Of a stretch of DNA of 36,592 nt, positions 5,979-15,659 are shown one piece after another. Origin of the DNA: Chitinophagaceae bacterium (GTDB lineage Bacteria; Bacteroidota; Bacteroidia; Chitinophagales; Chitinophagaceae); the NCBI GenBank assembly GCA_028288585.1, contig JAQBNL010000074.1:1-36592 (forward strand), written 5' to 3'. A model generated the notes under the pieces. That model ran no database searches. It saw nothing but the letters and a program-made list of their open reading frames with translations, and was not told the DNA's origin. A program made the translations under genes and the position numbers. How positions within the stretch are numbered: the first letter of the stretch is position 1; every line of letters begins with the position of its first letter.

Positions 5979-8900
5979 TTAATATTTACTTGAATTTAAT
6001 AAATACATTTTGCCATATCCCTTTGTAAAATATTTGTCCGTATTATCATCCTGGTCTTTAAATTTATCAAGACTCTTACCATTTAAATTTGTAAGCACCC
6101 TGTACAGGTAAACACCATTAGCCAGTTTTTGTCCGTACATATCTGTACCATCCCACTTAAATTCTGTAATATTTCTTCCTATATGTATTGGCCCTAATTC
6201 ATTGCTGGTTATTTCTCTAACTACTTTTCCGGTTATAGTAAGGATCTGTATCCTCATATTTTGTGGTGGTTGTGTGCCTGTAACCGTAAATACAAATGCT
6301 GTTGAAGTTGTAAATGGATTAGGATAGTTCAGCAGGTTTGATATCATAGGCTTGCTAACCACACGGAAAATAACATGGTATTCAGTTTCACCAGCTTTAT
6401 TGCCGGCCACATCTTTCCCGGTAACGATAAGTTCAAATTCTTCGTCTTCTCCTGTTAACAGCGGTGTAAAATCTATCGTTGCTGTATTCTCACCATTGGC
6501 AAGGTTTGCGGGTGTAAATCTTACTGTGTCATTATCAAACCTGTAAGTTTTTAATGTGCCATCAGGAAAACGTATTTGCACTTTGAGAAGTGAAGTATCA
6601 CTCAGCGCAAGGTTTTTACTTTCATCTTTTAATTTTATAAGAATATGTGGCCTTGCGGAAACAATATCCCTGTTTAAAATATGAACACCATCAAACGTTA
6701 CATCGAGTAATGGATTAAAATTATCTCCTTTTACCAAAAAGTTTTTATAAATAAAATTGTTGAAATGATACTGCTCGGGCTGGTCATTGTCAGGATTTAT
6801 TTCAACAAACAAAGTATTCATGCCATAATAATTCCTTGTATCAATAGTATAGTGCACCGTTAATGTATCTCCGGAAGCCAATGTCTTTCCCTTAGGAATA
6901 CTGATAGCATGGGGAACATTGTTTTTGTCGGTTATTATGAATTTAATTTTCAGACTGTCAAACGAAGTTTCACTGATGTTCTTAAATGCAATTGCAAAAT
7001 CTATGTTCTCACCCACATCAACGGTATCTTTCATTTTGAAAAATATATTGGGTGCTATGGCTCCTTCAGGAACAAAATCAGCATTAACTCTCCAATACTG
7101 TAACTGGTTAGGCGTTGCATATGTTTGATCGCTGTTCAGCATTTTTAAAGTGAGATACGGATATGTTTTGGCATCAATAAATGCAAGCGTAGTATCTTTT
7201 GATTGTACGGTTGCCAGCTTTACTTTGCTGCCGGTTGCAGTGATACCATACACTTCAAGCGATACTGTATCAGGAACTGAAGGTTCTAAATCTTTTCCGC
7301 TCCAATGTAAAGCGGTCCATGCTTTGGCCGGGCCAATCTGTGCCCACTCAATTTCCCCGGTTTTAGATTTTGCCGGCAAAATAATCGATTCGTCTATCTG
7401 CTCATCAATTGCACCTACTACCTGCCGCGATGCATATGATGGAACTCCTTTTTGATAAAAATAGAGGAATGGGTGGTTGGTTGTAAGACTATCAATTTGG
7501 GTAAACCCGATTGATTTTAATTTATGGTATAATGAATTTCCGGAACCTAATGTTGCGGTATCACTCATCCAGGTATCGATTAATGATGTATTACTTATCA
7601 TTCCTAAATTAGTGATGCCTATATATTTTCCTGCGGGGATACTATCAAGAAAATCCATTGCTTTTTTTCTGTCGGCGGCCCCACCATAAGGCGGTCCGTA
7701 AGGAAATTCGAAAAAATATCTTATTGGGATTGTTGGTCTGCAGGTAGGCAAAGCGCTGCCAAACCTTCCTGTACCGCCTATATCATAATTAGGCATGGCC
7801 TGTAACGTAGTAGAATCAAATACATAAAACTGTAAGCTGTTATATCTGCAACCATAACTTTCAATCCTGTTAAGATCCAGGTAAACTGCTATCCTGTCAG
7901 AAAGATAATATGGGTATAATCCGGTTTTAAAATTAAGAGTCCTTGAATCTGTACCAAAATCAAATGCCCTGTTAGTGCCCAAATAAATTTGTTTATAACT
8001 ATCTTTTAAAAACTGGTAATACTGGGATTGATTAAACCCGGTACCGCCATTTTGCAAATAGATAAATGAAGAATTGTTCCAGATAAAAGGACCGCTTACA
8101 GGTTGCATTGCAATACGCCAATAATACACCGTGCTGTCAGTATAAGTTATCAATGGTTTAAATTCTATCACTCCCCCTATTGATGTAGTATTAAATGTTT
8201 TTTTAAATGGAGAATTAAATAATTCAGTTGTATCAACTTCCATTATTATCTGCCTTTGTGCCGTAAGCGGGTTTGCAGTGGACCCGTAATAACTTGTATT
8301 CTGATTATTAATTATAGAAAAATTATAAGGATAAACAGGTCTTATCTCATCTTCAAAAATGAAGAAATCTTTTGTTACCGTATTGTTGAGTTCAGACATT
8401 TCGTTAATATGGTTATCTGTGTCAAGCGTAACTGTTATTTTATTTAAACCTTTATCCGTAACCGGGTTTATCTGGGCAGTAATATCTAAAGAATCTGCAT
8501 ACTTAATCGCAGCAATTACCTTATCATATAAAACGGTTATACTATTATCAGGTAATGTTCTTTTTACCGTTACCCTGATAGAATCGGTAATAGCTTTACC
8601 AATATTAAGCATGTTTACTTTTATGCTGAATGTATTATCAGCTACAGAAACAATTGTAGGATTAATCTTAATCATTGGTTCTTCTATGATATAATCCGGT
8701 TTTGGATGAGGATTGATTTTTAATGCCGGGTCTCCATTCAAATTCATTTCTTCAAGATGCATTCTTGTAAAAAAATCCAATCCCGGCGAGGCTCCTCCTA
8801 AATTCTGGATTATATTTCTTATAATATTACCTGCAGAGCTTCCATAACTTGTTACCCCTGTTTCCTTATAAAATTCATATTGATAATTATTAAGGAATGG

Positions 8901-11033
8901 TGGTATGCCAAGGTGGGTACTTGCTAAAAATGCAATGCTCCCCCGTTGGTTTGCCAAAACATATTTTTCAGAAAGAGTTAATATTCCCTGCAGGCGCAAG
9001 GGGTCTGCAGTATAATTATTTCCTGCTGTACATCCGCTTACATTAAAGAAAGGATATTTACCAAGATTAGTATATGTTTCAGGTGCGCTTAAATTGAATT
9101 CCAATGTATTGGCTGATGAATGGCCGAAATAACTAAGAAAGCTTATCCCTTCATTAAAAAGTTCTTCTATCCGCTTGCTTGCAAGTATCTGCACTGTTGA
9201 TGTTGTTGATTTGGAAAAAGTTTCCACCTTAGCACCGTATAAAGTATCTTCGATTATTTGCTTATAGCTATTCATATATATTGTAAAAAGGTCACTTTCT
9301 GAACCCTCTTTTCCTCCAATTACATGTACAACATTCTTCATCCAGGCTTTATCTGCTATAGTTTGCGATGTAGAAACCTGCGCCTCTTCGTATTGCTTCA
9401 TTTTTACAAGATAATTTCCAACTTCATTGCCGGTTACTACTGATAACCTGCCAATAGGAATATCCGGTACCAGGGTATTGTATGGCGATGCCAAACGAAT
9501 ATCTGAAGCAGGAAAACCAAACGTGGGTATAAGATTGAGTCTTTCTCCATCGGGACTGTTTCTTACATACTGGTAATCACTATAGGTTACACCCTTACCA
9601 ATAAGAAAAACAAATTGGGGAGTTTGTGCAAAATTTGTTTTTGCAAACTGCAAAAAATCCTTAACTGATGATGGATGATTTTTTATACCGTATCCGAATT
9701 GATCATTTAATTGATCAATGTCATAAACTTTAGCATTAAAATTTCCTCCGGGTGCTGAGCTTCTGTACGCCCGATACTGGTCAACATAATTTTGTCCTGC
9801 GCCATTGTTATATAAGCCCGGATGGCTGATAATTAAATAATTTCCCTGGTTAGCAGCAAGTGAATAGTTTATAAAGTTGCGCTGAACCAGATTTGTAATT
9901 CCCATCAGGTAGGATGGGTTCTGGCTTGCCAGAATAAATTTGCGAAGTGCTGTTGAAGAAGCAGGCAGTACAAACTTTACTTTGCCTGGTGTAGATATAT
10001 CACCTGTATACCGGTTACCGGATATAAGATCCAACAAAACCGGGGATACATTGGCTGCATTAAAATTATCTATTACTAAATAATTACCGGTAGTGGTAGC
10101 CGGTAATTCAAAATAATAACGTGCACTATTATTAAAATTAAATTTACTTGGATAGGTAATCTCTATAAAAGAAACAACCATACGATCATCAGTAGTTGGA
10201 GAACCATTTTGAACATTTATACCTGCTGCATTAGTACCAACAAAAGTTGATAAAGGAACATTAACCTGCGCTTTCAGGTATCCAAAATAATCCATTGCAG
10301 TATCTAAAATAGTTGTGCCGGATAATTTTACCTTTACCCTTCTGCTGTTTAGTGAATTACCGGAAGCTGCCATACGAAAAGTAGCAGACGGCCCTGCAGA
10401 ATATAAATTTATAGTATCAAATACCTCTGAAAAATTACTGGTTGGATATATATCAAGGCTTGTATATCCCTCGCCAATATCGTACGACGAAGCATACACA
10501 TACTCTCCTACCACTGCTGCATAACCGGGATTTATTTTGGAATTGTAATATATACCCCTGGTATTCATAAAATAAGGCTCAGGCGTTAATGTAGTACCGC
10601 TAACATTGTTAGGAACATCAATATATCTTAGATTAGCCCCTGCAGTATTTACCGTTAAAAAGTAAGCAGCTGTATCAGTTTCAAGGCTCCAGCGGTCTGA
10701 TAACTGGTAATCGCTGTTGAGATAAAGTTTTGTATCTTTTTTGCCATCATTCATTACTCCCCAAAACTCAATATAACCTGATCCCGCTAAGGGCCCGCTG
10801 GCAGAGGATGTATATAATCTTACTTCTTCTCCATTTCTCCATAATTGAAATTGATCGGCAGAAGTGCTGCCTAATCCAATTGATGATAATGTGGATTGTG
10901 AAATTCTATATAAGCCGGTAGCTACTATTTTAAACTTGTAATAAGTTTTATTATAATCTATCCAGCTATTGTTTGTTTGGCAATAGCCGGCTATTGAAAG
11001 CAGAATGAATATAGGGAGTAATAGTTTTTTCAT
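5979..11033 (-). CDS. porU: PorU-family type IX secretion sortase-like protein (PorU2 type)
   Basis: The 1684-aa protein has an N-terminal signal peptide (MKKLLLPIFILLSIAGYC, cut before QTNN). A Tyr at the -1 position argues against a lipobox. A gingipain-like (C25) peptidase domain spans about 400-780. Its catalytic dyad is visible: His638 in SYFGHSSAN and Cys668 in NVSGCTAG. Downstream are CARDB-like beta repeats from about 781 and again from about 1328, a segment FDGVHILNRDIVSARP shared with PorU proteins, and a C-terminal FlgD/T9SS-type beta domain (YPNPF near 1568, then a GxYLYRV strand). PorU removes C-terminal signals from T9SS cargo and attaches it to surface lipopolysaccharide. At 1684 aa it is much longer than P. 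gingivalis PorU (about 1158 aa), so it fits the larger PorU2-type paralogue and may not be the main sortase. It lies 14 bases after the porV-like gene, evidently in one operon. Confidence 0.8.
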   Translation of the reverse strand: MKKLLLPIFILLSIAGYCQTNNSWIDYNKTYYKFKIVATGLYRISQSTLSSIGLGSTSADQFQLWRNGEEVRLYTSSASGPLAGSGYIEFWGVMNDGKKDTKLYLNSDYQLSDRWSLETDTAAYFLTVNTAGANLRYIDVPNNVSGTTLTPEPYFMNTRGIYYNSKINPGYAAVVGEYVYASSYDIGEGYTSLDIYPTSNFSEVFDTINLYSAGPSATFRMAASGNSLNSRRVKVKLSGTTILDTAMDYFGYLKAQVNVPLSTFVGTNAAGINVQNGSPTTDDRMVVSFIEITYPSKFNFNNSARYYFELPATTTGNYLVIDNFNAANVSPVLLDLISGNRYTGDISTPGKVKFVLPASSTALRKFILASQNPSYLMGITNLVQRNFINYSLAANQGNYLIISHPGLYNNGAGQNYVDQYRAYRSSAPGGNFNAKVYDIDQLNDQFGYGIKNHPSSVKDFLQFAKTNFAQTPQFVFLIGKGVTYSDYQYVRNSPDGERLNLIPTFGFPASDIRLASPYNTLVPDIPIGRLSVVTGNEVGNYLVKMKQYEEAQVSTSQTIADKAWMKNVVHVIGGKEGSESDLFTIYMNSYKQIIEDTLYGAKVETFSKSTTSTVQILASKRIEELFNEGISFLSYFGHSSANTLEFNLSAPETYTNLGKYPFFNVSGCTAGNNYTADPLRLQGILTLSEKYVLANQRGSIAFLASTHLGIPPFLNNYQYEFYKETGVTSYGSSAGNIIRNIIQNLGGASPGLDFFTRMHLEEMNLNGDPALKINPHPKPDYIIEEPMIKINPTIVSVADNTFSIKVNMLNIGKAITDSIRVTVKRTLPDNSITVLYDKVIAAIKYADSLDITAQINPVTDKGLNKITVTLDTDNHINEMSELNNTVTKDFFIFEDEIRPVYPYNFSIINNQNTSYYGSTANPLTAQRQIIMEVDTTELFNSPFKKTFNTTSIGGVIEFKPLITYTDSTVYYWRIAMQPVSGPFIWNNSSFIYLQNGGTGFNQSQYYQFLKDSYKQIYLGTNRAFDFGTDSRTLNFKTGLYPYYLSDRIAVYLDLNRIESYGCRYNSLQFYVFDSTTLQAMPNYDIGGTGRFGSALPTCRPTIPIRYFFEFPYGPPYGGAADRKKAMDFLDSIPAGKYIGITNLGMISNTSLIDTWMSDTATLGSGNSLYHKLKSIGFTQIDSLTTNHPFLYFYQKGVPSYASRQVVGAIDEQIDESIILPAKSKTGEIEWAQIGPAKAWTALHWSGKDLEPSVPDTVSLEVYGITATGSKVKLATVQSKDTTLAFIDAKTYPYLTLKMLNSDQTYATPNQLQYWRVNADFVPEGAIAPNIFFKMKDTVDVGENIDFAIAFKNISETSFDSLKIKFIITDKNNVPHAISIPKGKTLASGDTLTVHYTIDTRNYYGMNTLFVEINPDNDQPEQYHFNNFIYKNFLVKGDNFNPLLDVTFDGVHILNRDIVSARPHILIKLKDESKNLALSDTSLLKVQIRFPDGTLKTYRFDNDTVRFTPANLANGENTATIDFTPLLTGEDEEFELIVTGKDVAGNKAGETEYHVIFRVVSKPMISNLLNYPNPFTTSTAFVFTVTGTQPPQNMRIQILTITGKVVREITSNELGPIHIGRNITEFKWDGTDMYGQKLANGVYLYRVLTNLNGKSLDKFKDQDDNTDKYFTKGYGKMYLLNSSKY

Positions 11034-11047
11034 AATGTTTAAAAAAA

Positions 11048-12151
11048 TTAATCTTTTTCTCTTTTAGACAGGTCAAATCTTAATGAAAAAATATGAGAGT
11101 ATAAAGGATTTGATTGGTTAGCAAGATTTGAAAAAGCATAATCAATACTTATATTTTTCACTCTGAAACCGGCGCCAAGACTTGGCTGGTAAATCCACAC
11201 CTTTTTTTGATTGGTTGTATCGCCATCAGAAAGGGCTTTCTGAAAATTGGTGATTCCCGCCCGAATAAAAAATACATTATTAATGGAAGCTTCAAGTCCA
11301 AGATGTGGATCAACACTTATGGAATTTCCACTAAGCACAGTATTTCTTTTACCATCAAAAGTCACATCAAAATCAGCCTCGGCCAGTAAATTAAATGAGT
11401 TACCAAAACCAAAATTATATCCTCCCCCCAAAGTAAGGCGGGGTGCGGTAAGTTCTGTTGACTTTATGGGTATATCGTTTTTAGTTAAATACAATACTTC
11501 CTTTTCTTTTTCACTAAAATTAAACGTCCATGCATTAAAAGTGGTGGTAATATCTTTTGCTACAATCCCTACACTCCAGTTATTTTTCTGTATTCTGAAT
11601 CCCGCATCCAGGCCAAACCCAAATGCTTTTGCAAAGTGGCCTACCTTACGATAAATGATTTTTGCATTGGCACCAAAGCTCATTTTATAATCGTCCTCAT
11701 CTTTTATTTTTTGAGCGAATGAAAACAAAAACGCATAGTCAGCAGAAGAAAATGTTTGTATATTATTGTAGTTTATGCTTCCGTCAGGCTCTACCAAAAA
11801 CAAAGTATTGGGGATATCATCTACCGCAAAACGTAAAACTGATAAACCAATCGTTCTTTTATTATCACTTACAGGTATTGCCACACTTGCATAATCGTAT
11901 TTAGCAATATTGGAGAAATAACTGGCATGCATAAAATTGGCAGATATGTTCTCTACACCTGTTAACCCTGCAGGGTTCCAATAACCTGCCGTACCATCTT
12001 TAGCAGAAGCAACCTGTGCACTGCCCATAGAAAGCCCCCTGGCTCCGGCGCCAATATTTAAAAATTCATTGGAATACTTTCTGAACTGGGAAAATGCTGA
12101 CAAAGGCAATATCAGTAAGCATATTATCCTCGCAGCGTAAGTTAGTTTCAT
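11048..12151 (-). CDS. porV: PorV/PorQ-family outer-membrane beta-barrel protein
   Basis: The product is 367 aa with a signal peptide (about 1-21, cut after SAFS before QFRK). The mature N-terminus carries NIGAGARGLSMGSAQVA, then GTAGYWNPAGL, the signature of the PorV/PorQ (UPF0164, FadL-like) barrel family. Alternating hydrophobic beta strands continue to the end, FSLRFDLS. In Porphyromonas and Flavobacterium, PorV shuttles T9SS cargo from the translocon to the PorU sortase and forms the attachment complex with it. Its position directly upstream of a porU-like gene supports that role here. The pair could instead be a second, accessory PorV-PorU set, since PorU2-type genes commonly coexist with a canonical pair elsewhere. 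Separating PorV from PorQ needs a tree. Confidence 0.78.
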   Translation of the reverse strand: MKLTYAARIICLLILPLSAFSQFRKYSNEFLNIGAGARGLSMGSAQVASAKDGTAGYWNPAGLTGVENISANFMHASYFSNIAKYDYASVAIPVSDNKRTIGLSVLRFAVDDIPNTLFLVEPDGSINYNNIQTFSSADYAFLFSFAQKIKDEDDYKMSFGANAKIIYRKVGHFAKAFGFGLDAGFRIQKNNWSVGIVAKDITTTFNAWTFNFSEKEKEVLYLTKNDIPIKSTELTAPRLTLGGGYNFGFGNSFNLLAEADFDVTFDGKRNTVLSGNSISVDPHLGLEASINNVFFIRAGITNFQKALSDGDTTNQKKVWIYQPSLGAGFRVKNISIDYAFSNLANQSNPLYSHIFSLRFDLSKREKD

Positions 12152-12483: not shown

Positions 12484-13770
12484 ATGAAGAATTTAATAGA
12501 AGAATTAAAATGGCGGGGACTTATCCAGGATATTATGCCCGGCACCGAAGAGCAATTAAATAAGGAATTAACCACAGGTTATGTAGGTTTTGACCCCACC
12601 GCTGACAGCCTGCACATTGGCAACCTTGTACCAATAATGCTGCTTGCTTTTTTACAAAGATGCGGACATAAGCCAATGGCTCTTATTGGGGGCGCCACAG
12701 GAATGGTTGGTGATCCTTCAGGTAAAAGTGAAGAAAGAAATTTATTGAATGAAGATGTTTTGCAACACAATCTTGGCTGTGTAAAAAAACAACTGGAAAA
12801 ATTTCTTGATTTCGATGCCTCGAAACCTAACGGCGCGGAAATGGTAAACAATTACGACTGGTTTAAAGAGTTTACATTCCTTGATTTTATAAGGGATGTT
12901 GGTAAGCACATTTCAATAAACTATATGTTGGCAAAAGACAGTGTAAAAAAACGTGTGGAGGGAGAAACAGGAATGAGCTTTACTGAATTTACCTATCAGC
13001 TGGTACAGGGTTATGATTTTTACTGGCTGTATAAAAACAGGGATTGCAAACTGCAAATGGGCGGCAGCGACCAATGGGGAAATATTGTTACAGGCACTGA
13101 ACTGATAAGAAGAAAAGGTGGCGGTGAGGCATTTGCATTCACCTGCCCTTTAATGACAAAAGCTGATGGAGGAAAATTTGGTAAAACAGAAAAAGGAAAT
13201 GTATGGCTCGATGCAAAGAAAACATCACCCTACCAGTTTTATCAATTTTGGTTAAATGCTGCTGACGAAGATGCAGAACGATACTTAAAAACATTTACGT
13301 TTTTAAGTAAAGAAGAAATCGAAAAATTAAAAGAGCAGCATCACGGAAACGAACACCTGCGCATATTACAGCAAAAACTGGCAGAAGAAGTTACCACTTT
13401 TGTTCACTCTAAAAAAGAATATGATTTTGCTGTGCAGGCATCACAAATTTTATTCAGCAACGAAACAGCAGAAATTTTAAAACAATTGAATGAAGAAGAA
13501 TTGTTGCAGGTAATGGAAGGAGTGCCAAAGGTTGAATTTTCAAAACAAAGTTTAGCCGCAGGGGTTGACATTGTTTCATTTCTTTCTGATACCAAAATTT
13601 TTGCAAGCAAAGGCGAAGCAAAAAAAATGGTACAGGGCGGTGGGGTAAGTATAAATAAATTGCGGGTTGAAAGTCCCGAATCTAAGGTTGATAATTCACA
13701 ATTACTAAATGAAAAATATTTGCTGGTACAAAAAGGAAAGAAGAATTATTGGCTGGTGAAGGCGGGGTAA
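12484..13770 (+). CDS. tyrS: Tyrosyl-tRNA synthetase
   Basis: The 428-aa enzyme starts at ATG 12484; a TTG one codon upstream is less likely. This class I synthetase charges tRNA-Tyr with tyrosine using ATP. The HIGH-type motif is HIGN (44-47), the tyrosine/ATP pocket has [10 protein letters not shown] (191-200), and the KMSKS-type loop is KFGKTE (231-236). A C-terminal S4-like RNA-binding domain (about 360-428) includes [20 protein letters not shown]. Length and domain order match the bacterial TyrS-1 type (E. coli 424 aa). It is a single-gene unit between two minus-strand genes, with its own -7-like box upstream. No strong terminator directly follows the stop codon. Confidence 0.97.
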
Positions 13771-13866
13771 AATTTTACAGAAGTGGATTAAATATTTCTT
13801 AGCCACTCGTTAATCTACTATACCTGCACAGTAAATTCCACACTGCAAAGAAAGCGTGAATGCGCT

Positions 13867-13898
13867 CTTGCCTGCGGATACCCGGCAAAGTATCTTTG
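13867..13898 (+). promoter_or_regulatory. Candidate promoter for the small RNA
   Basis: CTTG at 13867-13870 and TATCTTTG at 13891-13898 match the Bacteroidota -33 (TTTG/TTG) and -7 (TAnnTTTG) elements, with 20 bases between them. A start near 13903 would coincide with the first base of the 16-bp closing stem described in the next entry. Confidence 0.5.
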
Positions 13899-13902
13899 TA
13901 GT

Positions 13903-14037
13903 AGAAGTTGATTGATGCAATAATAGCATTGATCTTAAATTTGAACTCGATTTTATATGATAATAATTGTTGTTTAAATCCTTATCCATCCGAAAAACCA
14001 ACTAAAAATCCAGTATCAGTCAACTTCTCTTTTTTTT
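13903..14037 (+). ncRNA. Candidate structured small RNA (possibly 6S-like)
   Basis: The segment at 13903-13918 (AGAAGTTGATTGATGC) pairs with 14013-14028 (GTATCAGTCAACTTCT) over 16 consecutive positions, 14 Watson-Crick and 2 G-U. The stem is followed by CTTTTTTTT, a U-tract fitting intrinsic termination. Inside, CAATAAT at 13918-13924 can pair with ATTGTTG at 13966-13972. Alternatively, ATTTGAAC at 13939-13946 can pair with GTTTAAAT at 13972-13979. Either fold leaves a large asymmetric internal loop of at least 30 nt on the 3' side. A promoter-like pair ends 4 bases before the stem. A long closing stem joining the two ends, a large internal bubble and a length near 130 nt recall 6S RNA; a 6S-Flavo family is known in Bacteroidota. 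The 6S identity is a guess. A cis structure or another sRNA is equally possible. Confidence 0.5.
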
Positions 14038-14077
14038 ATCCAATTCCTAAGAATATCCTAATCCCCGCAAACTTATT

Positions 14078-14102
14078 AGTCCCGAACTTTCGGGACTTTT
14101 TT
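14078..14102 (+). terminator. Intrinsic terminator
   Basis: AGTCCCGA and TCGGGACT form a perfect 8-bp stem around the loop ACTT (14078-14097), followed by a run of T to 14102. The orientation suits plus-strand transcription. It is 308 bases after tyrS and about 40 bases after the U-tract of the candidate small RNA. It could end tyrS read-through or an extended small-RNA transcript. Confidence 0.8.
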
Positions 14103-14111
14103 GTTGTATTA

Positions 14112-15659
14112 TCACACCACTTTTTTCCTTTCTAAATATTTTTCTCTTATAATTTCATACACAGGTTTTTCAAATACTTTACTTTCCAGCCACGAAATAA
14201 TATCCAGGTAAACAAAGGCCCGGGTTTCAAAACGGTTTTTTTCAAACTGTTTTAATTTTTCCAGAAGCTTTTCAAATTGGGGCTTTAATTCTTTAGGAGA
14301 TAAATGAAAAGACTTACGCAGGAACTTAAACATCTCTTCTTCTACCAAACTAAGATTTTCCATCTTGGCCATAAACCTGTAAACTGATTTTACCAGGTAT
14401 TCCATCAGGTCAAAATTTCCCAGCTCATAATGAGCTATCAGGTGCAGCAGGCGGGCATAGCATTGCAGATCATTCCTTAGATCAACTTTCCAGTTAATAA
14501 TTTTATTCAGGTAATCTATGCTGCTGCCAAATTCAGCTGCACCAAAATAAAGCGAAGCGATCTTGTAATAAAATACAAGGATGCGGTGCCTGTCAAGATG
14601 AAGTTGAAATTCATTTAATTTTTCCTCGATAGTGGGTACCAGTAATAATCCTTCTGTAAATGTTCCGTCTAAAATATGTTGATTAACCTTGGCAATGTAT
14701 AGATACACAAAAACCTGGATACGGTTATTATCACTTTGCTTTACAATATCTGAATGGGCAAACTTTTCAAATTGCTGAACATCCTTTTCAAACTTTGAAT
14801 AATTGCGCAGGGTAAAATGCGCAGTCAGCAAATTATGCATGCCTTTTATATAACTCGCCGTTTCTATTTCTATCATCAGGGGCTCCTGGTGAAACAGGTC
14901 GACCCAATGCTGGGTATAGCGATAGTACATTAAAAAATCCTGCCTTATAAAAGCATACCAGCAATAGCTTTGGTACAGGTACAATTTCTCATAAAACCCA
15001 TTCGCCTTCTTCAGATCATCTGATAAATATGTTTGAAAATAATTCTCTATTTCTCTTTCATCTTTTTCATTTCTTGCATGCCCGTTATTAATGTACCAAC
15101 TGTATAATTGTAAAGCAAGATTAGAAAGTTTAGTAATGCGTACCAGGCGCTCATTAACATCGTCCGCCTCTCCTATCAGTTGTGCTGCCCTGTCTTTCAG
15201 GCTGCGTGTTATGTGCAGGCTTTCAATTTTTTTCTCTAAAAACAGTACCTGTACAAGAAGGCTTATCTGGTTATTTGCTTTTGCCGTTTCTTTTATTTTA
15301 TCCAGGATTTTAAGGCTTTGCAGGTAAAGGCCTTTGTTGTAAAGAATCCTGGCATTATCCAATTGCTCGTGCAGCTGAATATCAATATTTTTATTTTCCA
15401 ATACACGTAAACTTGCTAAAACCTGCTTGTATAAATGTGCTTTTGTGTTGGATAATTGTTGCTTCTTTAAAGAGCTTGCTTTCCTCAATAAAACTTCTTC
15501 ATCATATTCATTCATCGCATCCAAAGCATCAAACAACTGTATGATCTTCATGTCTTCATTAGATGAATTTCTTTTGACGTATAGCTTAAAATTGCGCTTT
15601 TCCTGCTTCTGAAGGGAATGGACCAATTGAAAAAGTGCATCTGTTGAACGGTTGGGCAT
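14112..15659 (-). CDS. Hypothetical alpha-helical (TPR-like) protein
   Basis: The 515-aa protein starts at ATG 15657-15659. It has no signal peptide and no membrane segment, so it is probably cytoplasmic. The sequence is almost entirely helix-forming and rich in Leu, Lys, Glu and Tyr, with regularly spaced helical pairs such as LDNARILYNKGLYLQSLKILDKI (about 102-124) and YKIASLYFGAAEFGSSIDYLNKII (about 363-386). These look like degenerate tetratricopeptide or other alpha-solenoid repeats. No enzymatic motif was recognised. The N-terminus (MPNRSTDALFQLVHSLQKQEKRNFKLYVKR) is basic. Solenoids of this kind usually act in protein binding, but nothing shows the partner. It is alone on the minus strand, divergent from the leucine operon by 250 bases. 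I do not recognise the family. Confidence 0.75.
   Translation of the reverse strand: MPNRSTDALFQLVHSLQKQEKRNFKLYVKRNSSNEDMKIIQLFDALDAMNEYDEEVLLRKASSLKKQQLSNTKAHLYKQVLASLRVLENKNIDIQLHEQLDNARILYNKGLYLQSLKILDKIKETAKANNQISLLVQVLFLEKKIESLHITRSLKDRAAQLIGEADDVNERLVRITKLSNLALQLYSWYINNGHARNEKDEREIENYFQTYLSDDLKKANGFYEKLYLYQSYCWYAFIRQDFLMYYRYTQHWVDLFHQEPLMIEIETASYIKGMHNLLTAHFTLRNYSKFEKDVQQFEKFAHSDIVKQSDNNRIQVFVYLYIAKVNQHILDGTFTEGLLLVPTIEEKLNEFQLHLDRHRILVFYYKIASLYFGAAEFGSSIDYLNKIINWKVDLRNDLQCYARLLHLIAHYELGNFDLMEYLVKSVYRFMAKMENLSLVEEEMFKFLRKSFHLSPKELKPQFEKLLEKLKQFEKNRFETRAFVYLDIISWLESKVFEKPVYEIIREKYLERKKVV

Follow-up and report, generated by a model that had tools for sequence, protein, structure and literature searches.

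The window (the whole 36,592-nt stretch of Chitinophagaceae DNA analysed here) contains an intergenic gap bounded by tyrS (Pfam tRNA-synt_1b) and by a convergent 515-aa gene for which no Pfam match was found at E≤0.001. Elsewhere in the window, at positions 5979-12151 of the minus strand, lie two adjacent genes of 1684 and 367 aa, whose sequence features suggest the type IX secretion proteins PorU and PorV. Inspection of the gap, together with comparison to related loci, yielded the following features:

13831-13842, plus strand: distal upstream element GTAAATTCCACA (common family form GTAAATACYGWA), found upstream of many copies, with columns -61 to -56 moderately conserved
13853-13866, plus strand: dyad AGCG-N6-CGCT (AGCG 13853-13856, CGCT 13863-13866) abutting the -33 element; columns -44 to -33 of the promoter profile
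13867-13870, plus strand: -33 promoter element (C)TTG, from the sequence and the promoter profile
13891-13898, plus strand: -7 promoter element TATCTTTG, of the Bacteroidota type TAnnTTTG, from the sequence and the promoter profile
13903-14104, plus strand: proposed full-length sRNA of ~200 nt, its 5' end placed from the promoter and its 3' end from the GC-rich terminator (14078-14102)
13903-13918, plus strand: 5' arm of the closing stem, AGAAGTTGATTGATGC, from pairing, fold, conservation and compensatory changes
13910-13934, plus strand: alternative 5' hairpin (13910-13918 with 13926-13934), formed at the expense of the closing stem's inner half; covariation in alignment A1, missing in some lineages
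13978-14011, plus strand: RUCC repeats of the loop (starts 13978, 13984, 13988 and 14008), with GAAAAACC at 13992-13999, from the sequence and family statistics
14013-14028, plus strand: 3' arm of the closing stem, GTATCAGTCAACTTCT, on the same evidence as the 5' arm
14030-14037, plus strand: U8 run 3' of the closing stem, possibly a partial first terminator or a structural U-tract, from the sequence and the alignment
14038-14082, plus strand: repeat-bearing tail (RUCC starts 14038, 14055, 14061 and 14079), from the sequence and family repeat density
14078-14102, plus strand: GC-rich intrinsic terminator AGTCCCGA-ACTT-TCGGGACT followed by a T run, from the fold and sequence of the window and its relatives

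A preliminary description of this DNA had read the gap as an unannotated, independently promoted small RNA, a reading that the sequence supports, both promoter and stem being conserved in relatives. The promoter pair described there (CTTG, a 20-base gap and TATCTTTG, ending 4 bases before the stem) is present as given, as is the pairing of the two ends over 16 positions, two of them G-U. The eight T said to follow the stem directly do exist, although C 14029 intervenes. Likewise, the proposed transcription unit of ~126-135 nt does have its own promoter, but its end at the T8 is probably misplaced, conserved repeat-bearing sequence extending past this run. Three elements go beyond that description, namely the upstream dyad, the alternative 5' hairpin and a second, GC-rich terminator (14078-14097 plus T). 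When folded, the 135-nt segment reaches a minimum free energy of -26.1 kcal/mol, compared with -14.6 +/- 2.8 for 200 dinucleotide shuffles, none of which was as stable (z -4.12).

The element is, with near certainty, one copy of a multicopy family of intergenic sRNAs that is absent from Rfam 15, as judged by sequence comparison. When the intergenic region was compared by BLASTN with 59 related genomes, two conserved blocks appeared at many places (the promoter with the 5' arm, and the 3' arm with the U-run), separated by a variable middle and often arranged in tandem ~400 bp apart; the tally at E≤1 (58 of the 59 genomes) was set aside in favour of strong matches, since weak ones may be due to chance. 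One relative (G009) carries a 78%-identical copy that likewise adjoins tyrS. A covariance model, R1, was built on A1, an alignment of 25 two-block units from the retrieved loci, and located a second copy in the window's own genome (G000:C38:1837-1974, 94 bits). R1 matches were obtained in at least 84 of 244 Chitinophagaceae genomes, the own genome included, and in at least 32 of 92 genera, with up to 10 in the richest genome; strict filters and the scoring of 14 candidates per genome make these counts lower bounds. The other 160 genomes gave no match. In a phylum-wide draw of 392 genomes, R1 matched seven, all of them Chitinophagaceae, and gave no match outside this family. Searched for as a DNA pattern, the two arms were found in at least 119 stretches of named genomes, 80 loci of which were retrieved; among the matches listed are Ferruginibacter, Flavihumibacter, Flavisolibacter, Flavitalea, Niastella, Cnuella, Ginsengibacter, Paraflavitalea, Pseudobacter and Puia, and the record titles among them name members of Chitinophagaceae or Chitinophagales, the others only Sphingobacteriales, Bacteroidetes or Bacteroidota. 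No report of this RNA was found by title or beginning of abstract among the open-licence papers listed.

Multiple copies with inverted arms of ~16 bp around ~95 bp could also describe a MITE-like repeat, the arms being its terminal inverted repeats. We consider this extremely improbable, as many genomes share one syntenic site, the arm pattern gave no match in viral contigs, and conservation reaches well beyond both arms, into the promoter and the tail, in the units listed. The conserved flanks led us to reject it.

Searched against Rfam 15, the window gave no match at the gathering score; for the region 13740-14140, a search at E up to 10 returned four matches, none of them anywhere near its gathering score, and in eight relative loci only RNase P exceeded the cut-off, at a place other than the RNA. 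The likeness to 6S-Flavo (RF01685) raised in the preliminary description did not hold up, as this model matched nowhere in the 39 genomes searched, the own genome among them. As a control, RF01685 matched 13 of 118 genomes of the phylum (10 in one family, one in the order of the window and none in Chitinophagaceae), with one match per positive genome. The bacterial 6S model RF00013 was similarly negative in 30 genomes while matching 5 of 14 controls. Membership in either 6S family was therefore rejected, both models having matched elsewhere. A broader reading, that the RNA is a 6S RNA or a Chitinophagaceae analogue of it, acting as an open-promoter mimic that sequesters RNA polymerase, seems to us very unlikely. 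6S RNA is built of a closing stem, a central bubble and a terminal stem; the window RNA resembles it in its length range and in the long closing stem that encloses an open region, and no other 6S was found in the searched genomes with RF00013 or RF01685. A 6S RNA with pRNAs is also reported from Bacteroides (PMC7366714). Against these points, the predicted folds do not show the series of closing stem, bubble and terminal stem, the large loop is filled with repeats, Rfam matches are missing even at relaxed thresholds, the window RNA often occurs in several copies where 6S-Flavo gives a single match per positive genome, and it was found in 84 of the 244 Chitinophagaceae genomes (a lower bound). 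Flavo-1 RNA (RF01705), another multicopy Bacteroidota ncRNA, has eight matches in the own genome, none of them on the window's contig, and 63 in one relative (G036); the window has no RF01705 match, and we regard the two RNAs as unrelated.

Most copies share a dedicated promoter of the Bacteroidota, or sigma-ABfr, type. A profile of 168 upstream regions, drawn from 172 copies with 70 nt upstream, consists of an A-tract (-50 to -47), an RGCA-N4-TGC dyad (-44 to -33), TCTTG, a nearly informationless 20-nt spacer and TAnnTTTG, the last being complete in 131 of the 172 copies and a TTG-like -33 element standing at the correct distance in 141. The strict pattern GCANTNNTGCTCTN{20,24}TANNTTTG was found in 57 of 244 Chitinophagaceae genomes, with none for the reversed control. 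At the 30 such loci retrieved, 33 of 35 hits run into RUCC-rich, strand-biased sequence; as for the remaining two, one looks like a chance match in coding sequence and the other is cut by the end of the locus. The dyad of the window has a centre two bases longer than the family form, and the strict pattern does not match the window copy. It has no hit in the own genome, where a looser pattern has one, the C38 copy; the latter pattern gave 20 hits against none for its reversed control, one of them (G042) outside Chitinophagaceae.

Among the 195 distinct spacers that separate the -33 and -7 elements, 19, at 19 retrieved loci, contain sites resembling the DnaA box (TTGTCCACA, TGTGGATA), compared with a mean of 0.2 and a maximum of 2 in mononucleotide shuffles; the copies concerned are related, so that they do not count as independent cases. 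Judging from their spacers, such copies may have a link to DnaA or to replication. At two other loci, L273 and L274, an inverted pair of DnaA-box-like sites, TTATCCACAGCTGTGCATAA, lies ~10-50 bases past the U-run.

The closing stem is 97.8% paired in A1 and nearly invariant, so that covariation is little or no better than in shuffled alignments, and double changes occur at one pair, which shuffles reach as well. Among 106 copies found with R1, an alignment that leans to this model, 93.7% of stem cells pair, with double changes at three pairs (10 cells). Selection by promoter only yielded 33 units; in 26 of them the 5' end pairs with a segment further downstream over 12 bp or more, compared with 1.7% of mononucleotide shuffles. 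These 26 differ in a compensatory manner at pair +9 (T-A in 13, C-G in 8), pair -3 (G-C in 12, A-T in 6) and pair -4 (A-T in 11, G-C in 6); the differences at -3 and -4 trace to single-base insertions that match between the two arms, and since the units are related, none of these differences counts as an independent event. The relatives thus bear out the proposed stem, which is conserved and undergoes compensatory change in diverged copies. For the competing 5' hairpin, 92.8% of cells are paired on A1 and none of 500 shuffles reached its covariation score, but several lineages possess another hairpin or none. A bistable switch between the two structures is therefore not proposed for the family as a whole.

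Across copies the 5' arm, AGAAGUUGAUUGAU, hardly varies, as would be expected of a base-pairing seed no less than of a stem. The window RNA could accordingly act in trans as an antisense sRNA comparable to FopS/GibS, in which a seed in the 5' arm or the loop would pair with mRNAs near start codons, the repeats being secondary. We take this possibility seriously, as somewhat less likely than the reading favoured below. Paralogous sRNA families of such a sort are described for Bacteroides (PMC11697453), and the alternative hairpin could free or mask the 5' arm. Conversely, the stem also explains the invariance, the two arms changing together in diverged copies, and the distribution of the repeats, given below, exceeds what a seed would account for.

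The genomic surroundings were compared for 177 distinct copies, only two of which are overlapped by an ORF of at least 110 aa. A same-strand upstream gene with PALP and CBS domains (cysteine synthase/cystathionine beta-synthase-like) accompanies 69 copies and a same-strand downstream gene for a periplasmic binding protein 47; one or both of these neighbours are found at 85 copies and neither at 92. The commonest site, between these two genes and on one strand with them, is what would be expected of a cis-acting leader or attenuator, its stem and U-run acting as a terminator that controls the downstream gene; the competing hairpin, together with the presence of a terminator-like hairpin before the periplasmic-binding-protein gene in only 7 of the 47 cases, agrees with this. 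Nevertheless, the gene downstream of the window RNA lies on the opposite strand, as do those of 25 of the 108 copies with both neighbours called; downstream genes vary, and several copies stand in tandem with terminators of their own. A leader function is therefore unlikely, and an obligate one was rejected for the family as a whole on the strength of the opposite-strand genes, the syntenic site excepted.

The loop is conspicuous for its repeats: 139 non-redundant loops contain 4.45 RUCC each, compared with 1.97 (maximum 2.19) in dinucleotide shuffles. Per 100 nt, RUCC density is 3.50 in the body and 3.15, 3.17, 2.37, 1.91 and 1.33 in the next five 50-nt bins, falling to ~0.7-0.9 beyond them, with 0.46 upstream and no more than 0.33 on the opposite strand over the body and the five bins. 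Clearing the bins of genes and of next copies left 3.01, 3.23, 2.42, 2.04 and 1.54. Strand-specific RUCC and GAAAAACC repeats thus extend 150-250 nt beyond the U-run, and in predicted folds the RUCC repeats are mostly unpaired. Two R1-negative genomes, G061 and G027, have the promoter followed by 22 and 13 RUCC, respectively, in 560 nt past the syntenic gene, without a long stem, and six further retrieved loci show the same combination. In the other 18 of the 20 R1-negative Chitinophagaceae genomes inspected, no such RNA lies directly past this gene; of three R1-positive genomes inspected there, G016 and G017 have the RNA and G004 does not. Since G061 and G027 keep promoter and repeats without the stem, it is the promoter and the repeats that look like the core of the element, with the closing stem as a frequent 5' domain. 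For the antisense reading, the strand-specific repeat excess is a difficulty, reaching far past any seed and outliving the stem.

Continuation of the conserved, repeat-bearing sequence past the U-run makes this run an unlikely 3' end of the transcript; in the window, the GC-rich terminator at 14078-14102 is probably the better candidate. A GC-rich terminator lies within 190 nt in 25 of 35 copies listed, among them 24 of the 32 copies of the window's genus, where it starts 16-121 nt past the unit. More generally, of 170 copies, 69 are followed by a terminator-like hairpin within 400 nt, compared with 17 on the reverse-complement control. Tandem terminators, the U8 followed by the GC-rich hairpin, are possible. 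Outside the window's genus, at L256, L253, L041 and L043, the tail enters CCTCCTGC-type sequence with the potential to form a hairpin with a GGAGG-type arm; a clear T run does not accompany it in L256 and L253.

Taken together, these observations lead us to favour, tentatively and at somewhat less than an even chance, a trans-acting multicopy sRNA that titrates a single-strand RNA-binding protein through its RUCC and GAAAAACC sites. Transcription would start near 13903 from the sigma-ABfr-type promoter beneath the dyad, presumably an operator. The nascent RNA would form the 5' hairpin first, after which the 16-bp stem would close a 94-nt, G-poor loop, and transcription would continue past the U-run and through the repeat-bearing tail to the GC-rich terminator at ~14102. 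Loop and tail would thereby display single-stranded RUCC and GAAAAACC sites, which would bind and titrate the protein, RRM or cold-shock-domain proteins being candidates, at a dose set by gene copy number and the shared operator. Repeats that are strand-specific, mostly unpaired, spread over the whole RNA and longer-lived than the stem are more readily understood as an array of protein-binding sites than as one antisense seed, while copy number and a common operator would suit control of dose. Points against this reading are the near-invariant 5' arm, equally suited to base pairing; the 160 Chitinophagaceae genomes in which R1 found nothing, together with the 18 inspected R1-negative genomes that lack such an RNA directly past the syntenic gene; the frequent failure to recognise a terminator-like end; and RRM or cold-shock-domain neighbours in no more than three genomes.

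Many copies of one short motif within one sRNA, and titration as its logic, are known from CsrB and RsmZ, where the motif is GGA in hairpin loops. Each RNA of the window family likewise repeats one short motif many times over, albeit RUCC and GAAAAACC instead of GGA, and we infer that the family is CsrB-like in logic and unrelated to CsrB. To our knowledge, post-transcriptional control in Bacteroidota is little studied, and we know of no established sponge-type system there; none appeared among the best 8 of 22 literature matches. A close parallel in the phylum is offered by FopS and GibS, ligands of RbpB in Bacteroides, which are, like the window family, multicopy, largely intergenic, found in one Bacteroidota lineage and transcribed from shared sigma-ABfr promoters (PMC11697453). 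The same paper describes RbpB as an RRM-domain protein, the partner of this multicopy sRNA family, with a preference for single-stranded regions. FopS is ~65-70 nt long with a 5' seed, whereas the window RNA, proposed to span at least ~200 nt, is distinguished by its long-range closing stem, by the dyad that precedes its promoter and by many RUCC and GAAAAACC sites.

Of 20 genomes searched, 15 encode RRM proteins, the own genome with two matches among them. At L042, L299 and L300 a copy lies less than 2 kb from the gene of a small RRM protein, and a cold-shock-domain gene is found within the same distance in L042 and, by likeness to the tested gene of L042, in L300. Such neighbours were seen in three genomes of one genus only, and RRM or cold-shock-domain genes are not among the 30 recurrent neighbour clusters listed; their presence is no more than suggestive. 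A more far-reaching version, which we consider doubtful, would make the family a Chitinophagaceae-confined class of protein-sponge RNAs with a dyad-controlled promoter and up to ~22 RUCC as well as GAAAAACC sites, titrating an RRM- or cold-shock-type protein as the Bacteroidota counterpart of Csr/Rsm, the DnaA-box-like spacer sites of one sub-lineage tying its synthesis to replication. In any case, the window RNA would add a family absent from Rfam 15, and its RUCC motif could serve as bait for the protein partner, as could the dyad for a transcription factor. A response regulator, apparently of the NarL/LuxR type from its sequence, is a candidate for the protein that binds the dyad. Its gene marks a second recurrent site of the family, represented by 12 retrieved loci, and at one more (L305) the RNA copy is divergent from the response-regulator gene.
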